DNA of 64,000 bases, from contig NZ_CP089291.1 of the NCBI RefSeq assembly GCF_022818495.1, positions 1,582,501 through 1,646,500 on the forward strand. The letters are read 5' to 3'. The notes under the pieces were generated by a model. It was given only the letters and a program-made list of their open reading frames with translations. It was not told the origin of the DNA and did not search any database. Of the stretch, positions 21,718-48,549 are shown piece by piece; position 1 is the stretch's first letter, and every line of letters starts with the position of its first letter. A program made the translations under genes and the position numbers. This DNA comes from Fodinisporobacter ferrooxydans (GTDB lineage Bacteria; Bacillota; Bacilli; Tumebacillales; MYW30-H2).

Positions 21718-21719
21718 TT

Positions 21720-26682
<4,963 letters not shown>

Positions 26683-26752
26683 TAAACAAAAAGGTTTACG
26701 TGCGCAAAGGGTACGATAGCATTCGCATCTGGTTTTGAAAGAATATTATAAT

Positions 26753-26829
26753 CGGAGCATGGCGCAGTTTGGTAGCGCGCTTGGCTTGGGACCAAGAGGT
26801 CGCGGGTTCAAATCCTGCTGCTCCGACCA
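26753..26829 (+). tRNA. tRNA-Pro(TGG)
   Basis: A 77-nt cloverleaf with anticodon loop CTTGGGA and an encoded CCA end. It follows 23S directly, where 5S would normally stand. Confidence 0.96.
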
Positions 26830-26833
26830 GTAT

Positions 26834-26906
26834 GAGCCATTAGCTCAGTTGGTAGAGCACCTGACTTTTAATCAGGGTGCCGCTGGTTCGAGTCCAGCAT
26901 GGCTCA
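26834..26906 (+). tRNA. tRNA-Lys(TTT)
   Basis: A 73-nt cloverleaf: acceptor GAGCCAT/ATGGCTC, anticodon loop CTTTTAA. CCA is not encoded. Confidence 0.95.
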
Positions 26907-26914
26907 TCTTTATT

Positions 26915-27071
26915 AGAGGATGTTCAAAAAGTAGTCAAAACTCCACGGCGGATTGCTTTGTCGAATCCCAAAAAGGCTTACTCATGTACCAAACACGTAC
27001 ACTCCGTCGCCTTTTCGTGCTTCGGCTTCGCACTCCTTGTGTCTTACTTAACCACTTTTTGAACACGCACT
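26915..27071 (+). mobile_element. 157-bp MITE, copy A, inside the tRNA cluster
   Basis: Terminal inverted repeats AGWGSRTGTTCAAAAAGT at both ends; no transposase. Flanked by TATTAG at 26911-26916 and 27071-27076, which reads as a target duplication. Near-identical full copies lie at 37689-37845 and 40980-41136. It separates tRNA-Lys from tRNA-Gly. Confidence 0.9.
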
Positions 27072-27089
27072 ATTAGGTTGATATATTGT

Positions 27090-27164
27090 GCGGAAGTAGC
27101 TCAGTGGTAGAGCATCGCCTTGCCAAGGCGAGGGCCGCGGGTTCGAGTCCCGTCTTCCGCTCCA
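27090..27164 (+). tRNA. tRNA-Gly(GCC)
   Basis: 75 nt, anticodon loop TTGCCAA, CCA encoded. Confidence 0.96.
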
Positions 27165-27169
27165 TACCC

Positions 27170-27258
27170 GGAGGGATACCGAAGCGGTCATAACGGGGCG
27201 GTCTTGAAAACCGTTAGGGTGCAAGCCCACGGGGGTTCGAATCCCTCTCCCTCCGCCA
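27170..27258 (+). tRNA. tRNA-Ser(TGA)
   Basis: 89 nt with the long variable arm of class II tRNAs, anticodon loop CTTGAAA, CCA encoded. Confidence 0.95.
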
Positions 27259-27266
27259 TTTGTTAT

Positions 27267-27343
27267 GTGCCCTTAGCTCAGCTGGATAGAGCGTTTGACT
27301 ACGAATCAAAAGGCCGGGAGTTCGAATCTCTCAGGGCACGCCA
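27267..27343 (+). tRNA. tRNA-Arg(ACG)
   Basis: 77 nt, anticodon loop CTACGAA, CCA encoded. Confidence 0.96.
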
Positions 27344-27359
27344 CTATTAAAATGAATAT

Positions 27360-27477
27360 GTCTGGTGATGATGGCAGAGGGGATACACGCGTACCCATCC
27401 CGAACACGACCGTTAAGCCCTCTAGCGCCGATGGTACTTGGAACGCAGGTTCTTGGGAGAGTAGGACGTTGCCAGAC
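27360..27477 (+). rRNA. rrf: 5S ribosomal RNA, copy 1
   Basis: About 118 nt closed by GTCTGG/CCAGAC, with CCCATCCCGAACACG. It lies after five tRNAs instead of directly after 23S. It differs from the other copy (48042-48159) in at least two internal positions (GCGTACCC versus ACGTACCC; GTTCTTGG versus GTTCCTGG) and in the closing stem. Confidence 0.96.
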
Positions 27478-27486
27478 AATAAAAAT

Positions 27487-27562
27487 GGGGGTATAGCTCA
27501 GTTGGGAGAGCACCTGCCTTGCAAGCAGGGGGTCAGCGGTTCGAATCCGCTTACCTCCACCA
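27487..27562 (+). tRNA. tRNA-Ala(TGC)
   Basis: 76 nt, anticodon loop CTTGCAA, CCA encoded; one G-T pair in the acceptor stem. Confidence 0.95.
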
Positions 27563-27611
27563 TTTACTAAATTCCCAATTAATACCACGAATTCGTATAT
27601 CCCTGTTAGTA

Positions 27612-27686
27612 TTCCTTGATAGCTGAGCTATAGAATATTCGACTGAAGACCTTCGGTTTGCAAGTTCGAATCCTGCTCGGGGTCCA
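27612..27686 (+). pseudogene. Decayed tRNA, Phe(GAA)-like
   Basis: A tRNA-like remnant: D-arm TAGCTGAGCTATAGAA is shortened, anticodon region CTGAAGA is present but its stem no longer pairs, the T-arm GCAAG-TTCGAAT-CCTGC has a mismatch, and the 5' and 3' acceptor strands (ATTCCTT and CTCGGGG) do not match. The end still reads GGTCCA. Probably non-functional. Confidence 0.6.
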
Positions 27687-27691
27687 TAATT

Positions 27692-27763
27692 GGCCCCATG
27701 GTCAAGCGGTTAAGTAACCGCCCTTTCACGGTGGTAACAGGGCTCCGAATCCCCTTGGGGTCA
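27692..27763 (+). pseudogene. tRNA-Glu(TTC) with damaged T-arm
   Basis: Acceptor, D-arm and anticodon arm (loop CTTTCAC) look normal, but the T-arm reads AGGGC-TCCGAAT-CCCCT. The universal G53-C61 pair is lost, and the T-loop begins TCC instead of TTC. Either a decaying copy or a highly divergent tRNA; CCA is not encoded. Confidence 0.6.
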
Positions 27764-27773
27764 TCATTAACAT

Positions 27774-27849
<76 letters not shown>

Positions 27850-27854
27850 TATGT

Positions 27855-27931
27855 GGAGCTGTGGTGTAGAGGCCTAACATGCCTGCCTGTCACGCAGGAG
27901 ACCGCGGGTTCGAATCCCGTCAGCTCCGCCA
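27855..27931 (+). tRNA. tRNA-Asp(GTC), copy 1
   Basis: 77 nt, anticodon loop CTGTCAC, CCA encoded. Confidence 0.95.
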
Positions 27932-27936
27932 CAATT

Positions 27937-28012
<76 letters not shown>

Positions 28013-28098
28013 GTATAAAATTTGATGATTTGAACAATATTACTAGTAGACGAATTTCAATTCTTGTGCAATGATTATACTAGCTCGCATTGTTATAC

Positions 28099-28172
28099 GG
28101 CTCGATAGCTCAGTTGGTTAGAGCGACGGATTCATAACCCGTAGGTCGGCAGTTCGAATCTGCCTCGAGCCA
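28099..28172 (+). tRNA. tRNA with CAT anticodon (elongator Met or Ile2)
   Basis: 74 nt, acceptor GGCTCGA/TCGAGCC, anticodon loop TTCATAA with one A-C mismatch at the top of the anticodon stem; no encoded CCA. The acceptor and T-arm resemble elongator Met of Firmicutes. Confidence 0.85.
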
Positions 28173-28193
28173 TCTTGCATTTTTATAAGAATC

Positions 28194-28316
28194 ATGAGTT
28201 TAGATCAGGTACCGTGCGTCGGAAACTCCGAACCGTGTCAGATCCTGACGGAAGCAGCACTAAGGGGATCTCTCCGAGCGTTGCGGCAATACCTGGTCTA
28301 AACTCATGGTTTTTTT
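28194..28316 (+). ncRNA. ffs: Signal recognition particle RNA (small type), with terminator
   Basis: The apical domain has GTGTCAGATCCTGACGGAAG followed by CAGCACTAAG, the conserved SRP54-binding hairpin. The ends pair (ATGAGTTTAGA / TCTAAACTCAT) and run into seven T, so the closing stem also serves as terminator of the tRNA cluster. Confidence 0.9.
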
Positions 28317-36492: not shown

Positions 36493-37128
36493 TTATTCAA
36501 GTGGAGGATCAATTACGGTATATCCATTGTTTTTTAAATGTTGAATGATCTTTCCTGGATCAATCGTTTTCACGCGCAAACTGATCCTTCGCGTAAGTGG
36601 AGTATTGGATGGCAGCATCAGCATTGAGCATACTTTCGCATTGCATTGCAGCAGTACATTTGCAATCCCAAATAAGCCTTGGGGTGTATCCGGCAATTCT
36701 ACTTCGATTCTGCTGGATGGTGTTGACACGCCCATCATCTCTACTAATGTTTGCAAAATGTCATTTCGTGTGAGAATTCCGACCAATTGGTTGTCTTTCA
36801 TTACAGGTAAAAATCCGATTCGATACTGATACATTTTTAAGGCAGCATCTTCCACGAAGTCGAGAGGATGCACAGTGATGAGATTCACCTGCTTCATAAA
36901 TTGCTTGACAGGTGTATTTAATATAGATGAATCTGGATTTTCGTCGAGTATGGAAGGGCGTGCATCCCGAATATCAATATCGGAGACGATTCCTATCACT
37001 TCTCCATTCGAAACAACAGGAAAATGCCGGATTTGATTCTTTTTTTCGAGTTCCAAAATCTCACTTAAAGTGGATTCCGGCGAAAGCGTTATAATATTCT
37101 CTTTCACCATAATCTGCTCGACTAACAT
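36493..37128 (-). CDS. acuB: AcuB-like CBS-ACT protein
   Basis: A 211-residue cytoplasmic protein with two CBS domains (about residues 5-60 and 75-130) and a C-terminal ACT-like domain (about 140-210). This is the AcuB layout, linked to acetoin utilisation and acetyl-CoA synthetase control; CBS pairs usually bind adenine nucleotides. The start at 37128 has AAAGGAG; the longer frame does not. No acuA or acuC is present, so the gene name rests on domain order. Confidence 0.8.
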   Translation of the reverse strand: MLVEQIMVKENIITLSPESTLSEILELEKKNQIRHFPVVSNGEVIGIVSDIDIRDARPSILDENPDSSILNTPVKQFMKQVNLITVHPLDFVEDAALKMYQYRIGFLPVMKDNQLVGILTRNDILQTLVEMMGVSTPSSRIEVELPDTPQGLFGIANVLLQCNAKVCSMLMLPSNTPLTRRISLRVKTIDPGKIIQHLKNNGYTVIDPPLE

Positions 37129-37212
37129 GTTTCGTTGCTCCTTTCCCATGTATCAGCAGTGAAAAATCAAACCAATAGGCACAATGGGTCTTGGAAATCC
37201 TATGCCTGGCAT

Positions 37213-37644
37213 TTATTTTACAATAAGAACCGGGCAAACAGCATGCTGAGCTACTTTATGGCTTACACTTCCTAAAACCAATTCGCTGAACGCGCCTAAA
37301 CCGCGGCTTCCCATCACAATCAAATCATATTGTTCTGCTTTCGCCTTATCATAGATTTCCAAAGCCGGATCTCCGGAAACAATCACGCTATTGCACGGAA
37401 TTCCTGCATGAAGTACTTTTTCTGCGGCTGGCTTTAGCAGTTTCATGCTTTCTTCATTTATTTTCTCTTCGATATTGATATCGATGGCGATTAAGTCTCC
37501 ACCCCAATAATGAACAAGCGGATTTACATGCAATAAAGTAATTTGACAAATCGATTCTCTGCCTCTGCAAAGGGAAATGGCTGCATCTGTTGCTCTTTGC
37601 GAATGTTCTGAACCGTCATAAGCTACCAGTATTTTATTATACAT
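37213..37644 (-). CDS. Universal stress protein (UspA family)
   Basis: 143 residues with the Usp fold: N-terminal ILVAYDGSEHS and the ATP-binding motif GSRGLGAFSELVLGSVS (G-2x-G-9x-G-S type). The start is chosen from GGAGGGG upstream of 37644. The upstream region was entered by a MITE only 45 bp from the start, which probably separates the gene from older control elements. Confidence 0.92.
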   Translation of the reverse strand: MYNKILVAYDGSEHSQRATDAAISLCRGRESICQITLLHVNPLVHYWGGDLIAIDINIEEKINEESMKLLKPAAEKVLHAGIPCNSVIVSGDPALEIYDKAKAEQYDLIVMGSRGLGAFSELVLGSVSHKVAQHAVCPVLIVK

Positions 37645-37688
37645 ACTATACCCCTCCAAGTGTTTTGGAATTTTTATAATATCCTACA

Positions 37689-38597: not shown

Positions 38598-38751
38598 AAA
38601 TTCCAGGAAGGGAAATAGTATATTTGGAACTGTCATGTCGACACGGAATTAAGGATAATATTTTCAACTTCAACTAACTTGTTACATGTATCTTGTTGCA
38701 TTTTCATAAAGAAAACAAATTTTTATAAGCAACAGAATGGAGGAGTGGGGT

Positions 38752-40503
38752 ATGCAAGTTGTAGTAGGTGTTTCCAATCGGCATGTCCATTTGACAAAGC
38801 TGGATTTGGAAGTTTTATTCGGGAAAGGGTACGAATTGACATATGTAAAAGACTTGCGCCAACCTGGGCAGTTTGCAGCGGAAGAAACCGTATCGCTGAT
38901 TGGTCCGAAAGGCGCCATTCATCATGTTCGGGTATTAGGACCATGCCGCTCCTATACGCAAGTGGAAATTTCCAGAACGGATTCTTTTATTCTCGGAGTG
39001 CAACCGCCGATTCGAGATTCCGGAGATCTGGCGGGTGCTGAATCGATTCTCATACGTGGACCCAGAGGGGAGGTCGAGGCGAAAGAAGCTGTCATCCTTC
39101 CTTTGCGGCATATTCATATGACGCCAGCAGATGCCGACCGGTTAGGGGTCACGAACAAACAATTCGTAAGTGTTCATGTTCCAGGTGAGCGTGCTTTACT
39201 GTTGGAACATGTATTATGTCGGGTTGCAGACGCTTCAGCTTTGGAATTTCATCTAGATACAGATGAAGCAAATGCAGCTAATTTGAAAAATGGCGACTTA
39301 GTAGAAATTGTAACAGATTCAGAAATCAAGCTGGGAAATGTAAATGTTTTACACAAAAAATCCCGTATTCTCGTTTTGAATTGTGGAAGCTCTACGATTA
39401 AATACAAAATTTATCAAATGCCGGAAGAAACGATCGTTGAGACAGATACGATTGCGAAGATCCCGGCTTCAGAGTATGGAAATCGGATCGAAAACGTCCT
39501 GAAAGGATTCTCACAGCACAAATTTGATGCGATCTGTCATCGTGTCGTACATGGCGGCGAAGATTTTAAACAATCAACGATTGTAACAGAGGAAGTAAAA
39601 GCATCCATTCGAAAATATGAAAGATTTGCCCCGTTACACAATCCGAACAACTTGATAGGGATTGAATCAGCTGAGAAGGTATTTCCCGATACGCTGCAGG
39701 TAGCTGTTTTTGATACGGCATTCCATCAAACAATGCCGCCGTCTTCGTATTTGTATTCCATCCCTTATGAATATTATGAAAAATACGGGATTCGAAAATA
39801 CGGATTTCACGGCATGAGTCACCGTTACGTCATGGAACGCGCCGAACAACTGCTTGAGATTTCGGCATCCAAATTGCGGTTATTAAGTTGTCATATTGGC
39901 AATGGCGTAAGCATTTGCGCGATTAAGCACGGAAAATCTTATGATACATCGATGGGTTTAACGCCCCTTGCAGGATTGACGATGGGAACGAGAAGCGGCA
40001 ATATCGACCCTAGCATTATTTCATTTATTCAAGACATTGAAGAATCATCAACAGAAGGTGTTATTGATATTTTAAATTACAAGAGTGGCGTTTTGGGGAT
40101 TTCCGGGGTGTCTGGCGATCTCCGGGATGTTATGGAGGCAGCGAAGGCAGGAGACAAACGCTGTCAATTGGCAATCGAAATGTACACGACTCGTATTCAT
40201 AAATACATTGGTTTATATTTGGCACGATTAAATGGCGTAGATGGAATTATATTTACAGCCGGTGTAGGAGAAAACAGTCCTGAGCTGCGGGAGATGATTT
40301 GCGCCGGCTTTGAGTATGCAGGTGTTGTGCTGGATTATGAACAAAACAGAAATAAACATGGAGAACGGTTTATTTCCGCGCAATATTCACCAATCAAAGT
40401 GATGGTGATTCCAACGAATGAAGAATTGATCATGGCGCGGGATGGATATGCGTTATTGCCAAAGTTACGCGAAAATAAGCGAACAGCGGAAGTTGTTTCA
40501 TAA
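38752..40503 (+). CDS. PduL phosphotransacylase - acetate kinase fusion
   Basis: A 583-residue bifunctional protein. Residues 1-200 are a PduL-type phosphate acyltransferase with both His motifs (VSNRHVHLT and LRHIHMTP). Residues from about 205 are a full acetate/propionate kinase: LNCGSSTIKY, CHRVVHGG, DTAFHQTMP, GFHGMSHRY, MGTRSGNIDP, GVGENSP and NEE near the end. One chain would turn acyl-CoA plus Pi and ADP into acid plus ATP via a channelled acyl phosphate. ATG 38752 follows GGAGGAG; no stop or frameshift at the junction. A strong terminator follows, so it is monocistronic. Confidence 0.93.
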   Translation: MQVVVGVSNRHVHLTKLDLEVLFGKGYELTYVKDLRQPGQFAAEETVSLIGPKGAIHHVRVLGPCRSYTQVEISRTDSFILGVQPPIRDSGDLAGAESILIRGPRGEVEAKEAVILPLRHIHMTPADADRLGVTNKQFVSVHVPGERALLLEHVLCRVADASALEFHLDTDEANAANLKNGDLVEIVTDSEIKLGNVNVLHKKSRILVLNCGSSTIKYKIYQMPEETIVETDTIAKIPASEYGNRIENVLKGFSQHKFDAICHRVVHGGEDFKQSTIVTEEVKASIRKYERFAPLHNPNNLIGIESAEKVFPDTLQVAVFDTAFHQTMPPSSYLYSIPYEYYEKYGIRKYGFHGMSHRYVMERAEQLLEISASKLRLLSCHIGNGVSICAIKHGKSYDTSMGLTPLAGLTMGTRSGNIDPSIISFIQDIEESSTEGVIDILNYKSGVLGISGVSGDLRDVMEAAKAGDKRCQLAIEMYTTRIHKYIGLYLARLNGVDGIIFTAGVGENSPELREMICAGFEYAGVVLDYEQNRNKHGERFISAQYSPIKVMVIPTNEELIMARDGYALLPKLRENKRTAEVVS

Positions 40504-40540: not shown

Positions 40541-40577
40541 GAAAAAAGCATCCGCGATGGGATGCCTTTTTTCTATG
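40541..40577 (+). terminator. Rho-independent terminator after the fusion gene
   Basis: GAAAAAAGCATCC / GGATGCCTTTTTTC, ending in a T-run; symmetrical enough to act both ways. Confidence 0.9.
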
Positions 40578-42504: not shown

Positions 42505-42719
42505 TTGCTTGAGAAGAAATAAATTTTTAAAATCCTAAAATTTTCATTTGCGTTCTCTAAGGGATTATGATATATTTATCAATGTCACTTCGACAGTCTG
42601 TCGCTGATGACACTTGAATTAAAGTTATAAGAAGTTCCTTGAAAACTAAACAAGTGCAGGGAGTTATATATGTAACTCCTGTCATTAGTCAGCAATGATT
42701 CTGACAGGGTAAAAACTTT
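42505..42719 (+). promoter_or_regulatory. rRNA operon 2 promoter and leader
   Basis: Candidates are TTGCTT-N17-TAAAAT (42505-42510, 42528-42533) and TTGCGT-N17-TATATT (42548-42553, 42571-42576). The stretch TATGATA followed by GTCACTTC also occurs at operon 1. The shared leader CTTGAAAACTAAACA starts near 42639. The 100-bp insert seen before 16S copy 1 is absent. Confidence 0.6.
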
Positions 42720-44272
<1,553 letters not shown>

Positions 44273-44620
44273 AAGTCCCTTATGGGGATGCGAAAAAGAG
44301 TGTTTGTGTTACACGAACATTGCCCTGCACTTGGTTAGTTTTGAGGGAACCTCCCTCAAATGGAAACATCTGATGGTTGCATCGCTGGATGCAGCGTATT
44401 AAGATGGATTTCCTGCTTCCGCAAGGAAGCGTGAATATGGAATGGCTTTTTTATGTACTTTGTTCTTGATGTTCTTTGAAAACTGGATAGCGAATTCTAT
44501 CGTATACAGGATGAATACAATGCGTGGTAACTGCGCAAGCAGTACACAATTTCATCAAATGTTTTACCCGAGCGCTTAACGATTTTTATTTGGTATGCAT
44601 GTTCTATGCAGCACCAAGCT

Positions 44621-44738
44621 GCGACTCGCTAGCGGCGAGAAGTGCTAGGAAGAGATTTCGTGAAGAAGTGAGCATAATGGAATTATGTGAACGATGAACG
44701 AAAGATCTGACAACGCAATTCGAAGCCGATAGATAGAG
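44621..44738 (+). repeat. rRNA-spacer hairpin element, copy E2
   Basis: Nearly identical to copy E1 through GATCTGACAACGCAATTCGA; its right end differs (GATAGATAGAG). Confidence 0.75.
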
Positions 44739-44742
44739 TGAA

Positions 44743-44864
44743 GTCGAATCAGAAGCGAGAAATGCAAGGAAGAGCGTTTGTGGAGGAGGGAGCGTACGAA
44801 GTGGGTACGTGACTGACGGAACAAACGATCTGACACAGCAGTTCGACGCTTATCATTCGACGAA
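44743..44864 (+). repeat. rRNA-spacer hairpin element, copy E3
   Basis: Ends GTCGAAT / ATTCGAC are inverted; internal CGTTTGT / ACAAACG pair; cores GCAAGGAAGAGCG and GATCTGACACAGCAGTTCGA match the family. It is absent from the operon 1 spacer, so it marks an insertion or duplication. Confidence 0.75.
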
Positions 44865-44866
44865 TA

Positions 44867-47842
<2,976 letters not shown>

Positions 47843-47916
47843 TAAACAAAAAGGTTTACGTGCGCAAAGGGTACGATAGCATTCGCATCTGGTTTTGAAA
47901 GAACATCTTTCTTTAT

Positions 47917-48037
47917 GATTCGCTAGAAGCGAGAAGTGCAAGGAATGACCGGAGCGAGTGAAGGAGCGTACGGTATTGGTACGTGACTGAGGCGAGTGAT
48001 GGGAATGACACAGCAATTCGAAGCTTATAGTAGAATC
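47917..48037 (+). repeat. rRNA-spacer hairpin element, copy E4 (23S-5S spacer)
   Basis: Ends GATTC / GAATC are inverted; cores GCGAGAAGTGCAAGGAA and TGACACAGCAATTCGAAGC match the other copies. In operon 1 the corresponding place holds five tRNAs and a MITE instead. Confidence 0.75.
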
Positions 48038-48041
48038 AGAT

Positions 48042-48159
48042 GTCTGGTGATGATGGCAGAGGGGATACACACGTACCCATCCCGAACACGACCGTTAAGC
48101 CCTCTAGCGCCGATGGTACTTGGAACGCAGGTTCCTGGGAGAGTAGGACGTTGCCAGGC
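48042..48159 (+). rRNA. rrf: 5S ribosomal RNA, copy 2
   Basis: 118 nt closed by GTCTGG/CCAGGC; follows 23S after the hairpin element, the usual order. Confidence 0.96.
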
Positions 48160-48169
48160 GAATATACAT

Positions 48170-48245
48170 GGGCGCTTAGCTCAGCTGGGAGAGCACCTGC
48201 CTTACAAGCAGGGGGTCGGCGGTTCGATCCCGTCAGCGCCCACCA
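48170..48245 (+). tRNA. tRNA-Val(TAC)
   Basis: 76 nt, anticodon loop CTTACAA, CCA encoded. It takes the place of tRNA-Ala in operon 1. Confidence 0.95.
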
Positions 48246-48313
48246 TGTAATTCACAAGATCGACGAATCGTGATATTCTATCACAGAGTCGACATGATGA
48301 ATGTACTGTTCGT

Positions 48314-48389
<76 letters not shown>

Positions 48390-48394
48390 TATAT

Positions 48395-48471
48395 GGAGCT
48401 GTGGTGTAGAGGCCTAACATGCCTGCCTGTCACGCAGGAGACCGCGGGTTCGAATCCCGTCAGCTCCGCCA
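48395..48471 (+). tRNA. tRNA-Asp(GTC), copy 2
   Basis: Identical to the copy at 27855-27931. Confidence 0.95.
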
Positions 48472-48476
48472 CAATT

Positions 48477-48549
<73 letters not shown>

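Follow-up and report, generated by a model that had tools for sequence, protein, structure and literature searches.

A PduL-acetate kinase fusion in Fodinisporobacter ferrooxydans and other Bacilli, a predicted single-chain counterpart of Pta and AckA

The locus and its fused reading frame

The gene considered here lies in a 64,000-nucleotide stretch of Fodinisporobacter ferrooxydans DNA (NZ_CP089291.1, positions 1,582,501 to 1,646,500), which we call the window and whose numbering is used throughout. It is situated between two rRNA operons (21719-28301 and 42719-48549); tRNA gene clusters follow both operons, and the small SRP RNA also follows the first. On the opposite strand upstream are genes for a two-CBS-domain protein, perhaps AcuB-like (36493-37149), a universal stress protein (37213-37659) and, directly upstream, an uncharacterized protein of the Lin0512 family (PF09585; 38063-38599). 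A universal stress protein gene is also found near the fusion at two other loci, L143 and L152. The gene itself occupies positions 38752 to 40503 of the forward strand and consists of 583 codons, stop-free from 38752 to 40500 as read directly from the sequence, followed by a TAA stop codon (40501-40503); the probability of so long a stop-free run at the given composition is approximately 1.5e-14. An alternative in-frame ATG is present at 38737, but the ATG at 38752 is the right start because a ribosome-binding site, GGAGGAG (38739-38745, forward strand), sits 6 nucleotides before it. A hairpin with a T run resembling a terminator follows the stop codon (40548-40573, forward strand); it is a consensus match only, and such sites are no commoner than chance (3 found against 2.9 expected in shuffled sequences). 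Together with the divergent orientation of the upstream neighbor, this hairpin suggests that the fusion gene is transcribed as a single-gene unit. A candidate cre-like regulatory site upstream of the fusion was rejected as inconsistent.

The frame encodes, in order, a PduL-type phosphotransacylase half (residues 1 to 187; 38752-39312), a linker of 17 amino acids (residues 188 to 204; 39313-39363) and an acetate kinase half (residues 205 to 583; 39364-40500), all on the forward strand. The first-pass annotation had proposed that a phosphotransacylase and a kinase share one uninterrupted frame, and matches to PF06130 and PF00871 along the 583 codons confirm this; PTAC and Acetate_kinase were the only Pfam domains detected in the protein at an E value of 0.001 or below. 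It had also named a sequencing error at the junction as one observation that would undo the proposal. Genes encoding PduL and AckA are known as separate neighbors in other bacteria, for example in Desulforamulus putei and Hungatella sp. UBA5385, and sequencing or assembly could in principle have joined such a pair; however, a junction error is excluded because the same fused frame and architecture recur in 18 further genomes, and with 19 genomes in agreement the probability that the fusion is an artifact is vanishingly small.

Active sites of the two halves and the predicted reaction

The N-terminal half carries a full-length PTAC domain (PF06130; residues 5 to 179 against positions 2 to 176 of a 176-position profile; E value, 1.4e-73) and scores 261 bits, against a cut-off of 209, with the NCBIfam model for phosphate propanoyltransferase (NF011652). 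It aligns without gaps to the PduL of Rhodopseudomonas palustris (5cuo), and its predicted model has the PduL fold (Z score of 30.5 and rmsd of 0.9 over 187 residues against 5cuo). The zinc ligands of the R. palustris enzyme are H48, H50, E109, H157, H159, and H204, and R103 contacts phosphate (PMC4784909); in the window protein, the corresponding residues are H11, H13, E72, H120, H122, and H167, together with R66. In an alignment of 20 fusion rows, in which one genome is counted twice, all six ligands and R103 are invariant, as are the coenzyme A contacts S45, R97, L99, and N211, and K70 is retained in 19 rows and replaced by arginine in one. The protein begins directly with the PTAC domain and has no encapsulation peptide. 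A role in a bacterial microcompartment was considered and rejected, as the genome contains no match to the shell protein family PF00936.

The C-terminal half matches Acetate_kinase (PF00871; residues 253 to 563; E value, 7.6e-136; 453.3 bits against a cut-off of 22) and the acetate/propionate kinase family TIGR00016 of NCBIfam (458.9 bits against 293.4), and its model superimposes on the Thermotoga maritima enzyme (2iir) over 358 residues with a Z score of 43.7 and an rmsd of 2.1. By alignment, the catalytic residues of the window protein are R264, D321, H353, R414, and E557. We compared the fusion kinases with a set of MtAckA residues (PMC4390882): N7, S10, S11, K14, R91, H123, D148, H180, H184, H208, R241, D283, R285, G331, N335, and E384 are invariant across the aligned rows, as are V93, L122, F179, and P232 of the acetate pocket. 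The sole exception among the tested kinase residues in the window protein is a conservative one, threonine at the position of S12. Thus the expectation that all characteristic motifs would be present holds for every zinc and phosphate ligand of the PduL half and for nearly all tested residues of the kinase half. The description of the kinase as complete stands for the active site but not for the N-terminal domain, which lacks approximately 26 residues between the third strand and the next helix relative to ordinary AckA (at least about 394 residues), with the core strands and helix still present in the predicted model. A full-length N-terminal domain is a usual feature of AckA that the family models PF00871 and TIGR00016 do not demand. 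Serine replaces asparagine at the position of N211 in eight rows, all of them fusions of family f26 (L115, L004/L113, L005, and L119 to L122), and this PHOSPHATE2 residue is retained as asparagine in a short standalone kinase (L008). The N211S substitution in MtAckA reduces the specific activity approximately 200-fold, to 4.4 units as against 883 (PMC4390882), but serine is the natural residue at this position in CnACK of the fungus Cryptococcus.

We propose that the di-zinc site of the PduL half would convert acetyl-CoA and Pi to acetyl phosphate and CoA, that acetyl phosphate would pass to the C-terminal half, and that the kinase would transfer its phosphoryl group to ADP to give acetate and ATP, so that the predicted net reaction is acetyl-CoA + Pi + ADP <-> acetate + CoA + ATP, reversible overall. 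Earlier annotation of the locus had suggested that the fusion couples acyl-CoA to ATP, a proposal supported by two predicted active sites that are complete, conserved, and joined in frame. With a probability of approximately 0.88, we regard the protein as a bifunctional enzyme whose single chain performs the work that Pta and AckA divide between two proteins, acetate probably being the principal acid; this reading includes a single origin of the fusion in the surveyed class and the later disappearance of the PduL half from a Brevibacillus lineage. The activity, the preference for acetate, and the direction in the cell are the inferred parts of this reading. Domain matches far above the cut-offs and models that fit known enzymes well speak for bifunctionality; against it stand the shortened N-terminal domain, threonine at S12, serine at N211 in family f26, and the presence of a Pta and a second PduL in the window's genome. 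In the literature that we searched, most subscription journals lying beyond its reach, we found no biochemical study of any PduL-AckA fusion.

Two other readings of the active sites deserve attention. One half might be catalytically dead and serve as a regulatory or CoA-sensing domain, and the short N-terminal domain and the serine at N211 in the f26 fusions could indeed weaken the kinase (PMC4390882); however, all zinc ligands and catalytic residues are kept, the two halves evolve at similar identity, and six of the fusion genomes yielded no second enzyme for either step, which makes this reading very improbable. Alternatively, propionyl-CoA and propionate might be preferred over acetyl-CoA and acetate, given that propionyl-CoA is a substrate of the PduL enzymes found in Pdu compartments and that the kinases for acetate and propionate are closely related (PMC3475010). 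Against this, the acetate-pocket residues are kept throughout, which points to acetate rather than propionate, no microcompartment shell gene is present, and the fusion is the only AckA of its genome and must therefore serve acetate at least; we consider a preference for propionate improbable. The position of V93 is occupied by Ala88 in TdcD, and structures of the TdcD variants A88V and A88G were among the structure-search matches of the predicted model.

Distribution, origin and loss of the fusion

In a sample of 399 genomes from the window's class, a full-length fused frame was found in 18, among them the window's own, distributed over seven families (f1, f3, f5, f11, f16, f26, and f31); Brevibacillus dissolubilis is among the 18, and Brevibacillus migulae provides a nineteenth genome. 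Identity to the window protein is 56 to 64% for the PduL halves and 55 to 65% for the kinase halves. In a 398-genome sample of the phylum, no further full-length fusion was found beyond the window's own. A 736-residue frame in genomes G402 and G448 was rejected as a fusion, since it proved to be a separate Pta open reading frame with a TAA stop codon, followed by AckA. We found no conserved metabolic neighborhood: the genes flanking the fusion vary between families and therefore offer no operon clue.

The PduL halves of 19 fusions fall on one side of a branch that separates them from 35 standalone PduLs in an unrooted tree (support, 99/99), and the same split is recovered with fewer rows (97/96). 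The kinase halves form one group with a set of short standalone kinases (genus g27 of family f26; one Brevibacillus isolate) with support of 100 in a second unrooted tree, a quick tree for which the support is SH-aLRT only. All of these kinases, fused and standalone, share the deletion of approximately 26 N-terminal domain residues. The short standalone kinases are nested within the fusion group beside the f26 fusions (support, 99), their genes occupy the same genomic spot as the f26 fusions, preceded by matching efflux and VanZ-like genes, and the PduLs of the genomes that carry them fall outside the fusion clade. For these reasons, the simplest reading of the trees and gene positions is that the fusion, an ancient and inherited one, arose once in the surveyed class and that the Brevibacillus g27 lineage later shed its PduL half, another PduL remaining there. 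The standalone PduLs of Brevibacillus were also considered as split-off fusion halves, a candidate rejected on account of their position outside the clade. Horizontal transfer may have had a part in the history of the fusion. Four genomes of genus g27 (G034, G126, G258, and G365) have PduL matches and no PTA_PTB match; AckA may be absent from them, as the strongest hit that the fusion query obtains there reaches PduL level only.

The complement of related genes suggests what the fusion replaces. Twelve of the 18 fusion genomes have no PTA_PTB match at all, and a full Pta is present in the window's genome only. Six genomes (G003, G062, G068, G076, G102, and G106) contain one PTAC and one AckA domain, both in the fusion, and no PTA_PTB match; as they show no further PduL, acetate kinase, or Pta, the fusion probably constitutes their Pta-AckA pathway and the sole visible route from acetyl-CoA to acetate via acetyl phosphate. 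These genomes support the proposal, made in 2016, that PduL can stand in for Pta (PMC4784909). Three others (G110, G208, and G307) likewise have one PTAC and one AckA domain in the fusion, with a sole PTA_PTB match of 24 bits that is probably PlsX, a member of the same clan, and matches of 149 to 157 bits in G152 and G171 are perhaps phosphate butyryltransferase.

The window's genome has no AckA-family gene other than the fusion, which is accompanied by a second PduL and one Pta. Xsc converts sulfoacetaldehyde to acetyl phosphate. The second PduL adjoins a gene for this sulfoacetaldehyde acetyltransferase (xsc; TIGR03457, 829 bits against a cut-off of 676) and an aminotransferase gene, and the Pta adjoins a second xsc; the two loci, near 3.87 and 4.06 Mb (L138:8097-12089 and L156:6493-9431), thus show a single genome employing two phosphotransacetylases, unrelated to each other, for the same role. 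Most likely, the second PduL and Pta turn the acetyl phosphate made by Xsc into acetyl-CoA, which leaves general acetate metabolism to the fusion.

The tether and comparison with known systems

Besides serving as an energy intermediate, acetyl phosphate donates phosphoryl or acetyl groups to signaling proteins. A true channel would pass it from the active site of PduL to that of the kinase unmixed with the cell pool, limiting acetyl-phosphate signaling and hydrolysis; the retention of the fusion over seven families, a linker length (14 to 18 residues among relatives) that is constant at 14 or 18 within lineages, and an earlier proposal to the same effect (PMC4784909) speak for this idea. The evidence does not bear out the claim of channeling made when the locus was first described, however: the linker sequence differs between lineages, residues 191 to 200 are modeled at pLDDT values below 50, the overall pTM of 0.62 does not allow the two halves to be placed confidently relative to each other, and Brevibacillus g27, having shed its PduL half, retains a PduL that belongs to another branch and is not linked to the kinase. 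We therefore regard channeling as doubtful. A flexible tether that ensures 1:1 coproduction and holds the halves close together explains the data equally well and would suffice to keep the fusion. In its fullest form, the argument would hold that a lineage of Bacilli exchanged the near-universal Pta-AckA pair for a tethered, channeling PduL-AckA with a trimmed kinase N-terminal domain, making acetate without a free acetyl-phosphate pool, and that Brevibacillus then returned to separate enzymes; we consider this combination unlikely, and if true, it would offer a naturally occurring test of the tether's function. The tethered making and use of acetyl phosphate where no Pta is found, together with the undoing of the fusion in a sister lineage, would offer a test of the effect of physical coupling on flux and acetyl-phosphate signaling, and the fusion could serve as a ready-made one-gene module that links acetyl-CoA to ATP.

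The first-pass annotation was unsure how often the fusion had been recorded. The architecture is already known, because Erbilgin et al. (2016; PMC4784909) described PF06130 in proteins of several domains, most of which carry an Ack annotation, and suggested that fusion may ease channeling. Like those proteins, the one described here combines PF06130 and acetate kinase in one chain, without an encapsulation peptide and outside microcompartments. Theirs was a single remark without sequences, distribution, or tests, whereas origin, distribution, residues, the missing Pta, and secondary loss are worked out here; as far as the searched literature shows, most subscription journals being outside the search, the distribution, single origin, shared N-terminal domain deletion, missing Pta, and Brevibacillus loss are new. 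In Moorella, PduL is the phosphotransacetylase that feeds Ack in the acetate pathway (PMC10823632).

The fusion remains a variation on a known enzyme pair. ADP-forming acetyl-CoA synthetase has the net reaction that is predicted for the fusion, but it belongs to protein families unrelated to the fusion and hands no acetyl phosphate between two such active sites; no NDP-forming CoA-ligase domain was detected in the fusion protein (Pfam, E value of 0.001 or below). The PduL of R. palustris (5cuo) and PduL1 and PduL2 of Moorella thermoacetica share the fold and the di-zinc site of the N-terminal half but are separate proteins, unfused to a kinase. Free AckA (T. maritima, 2iir; M. thermophila, 1g99) has the fold and catalytic residues of the C-terminal half in approximately 400 residues, whereas the fusion kinase has some 26 fewer in its N-terminal domain and is tethered to PduL. 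The adjacent pduL-ackA pairs of genomes such as D. putei and Hungatella sp. UBA5385 comprise the same two enzymes in the same gene order but encode two proteins, with a full-length AckA, on other branches of the tree.
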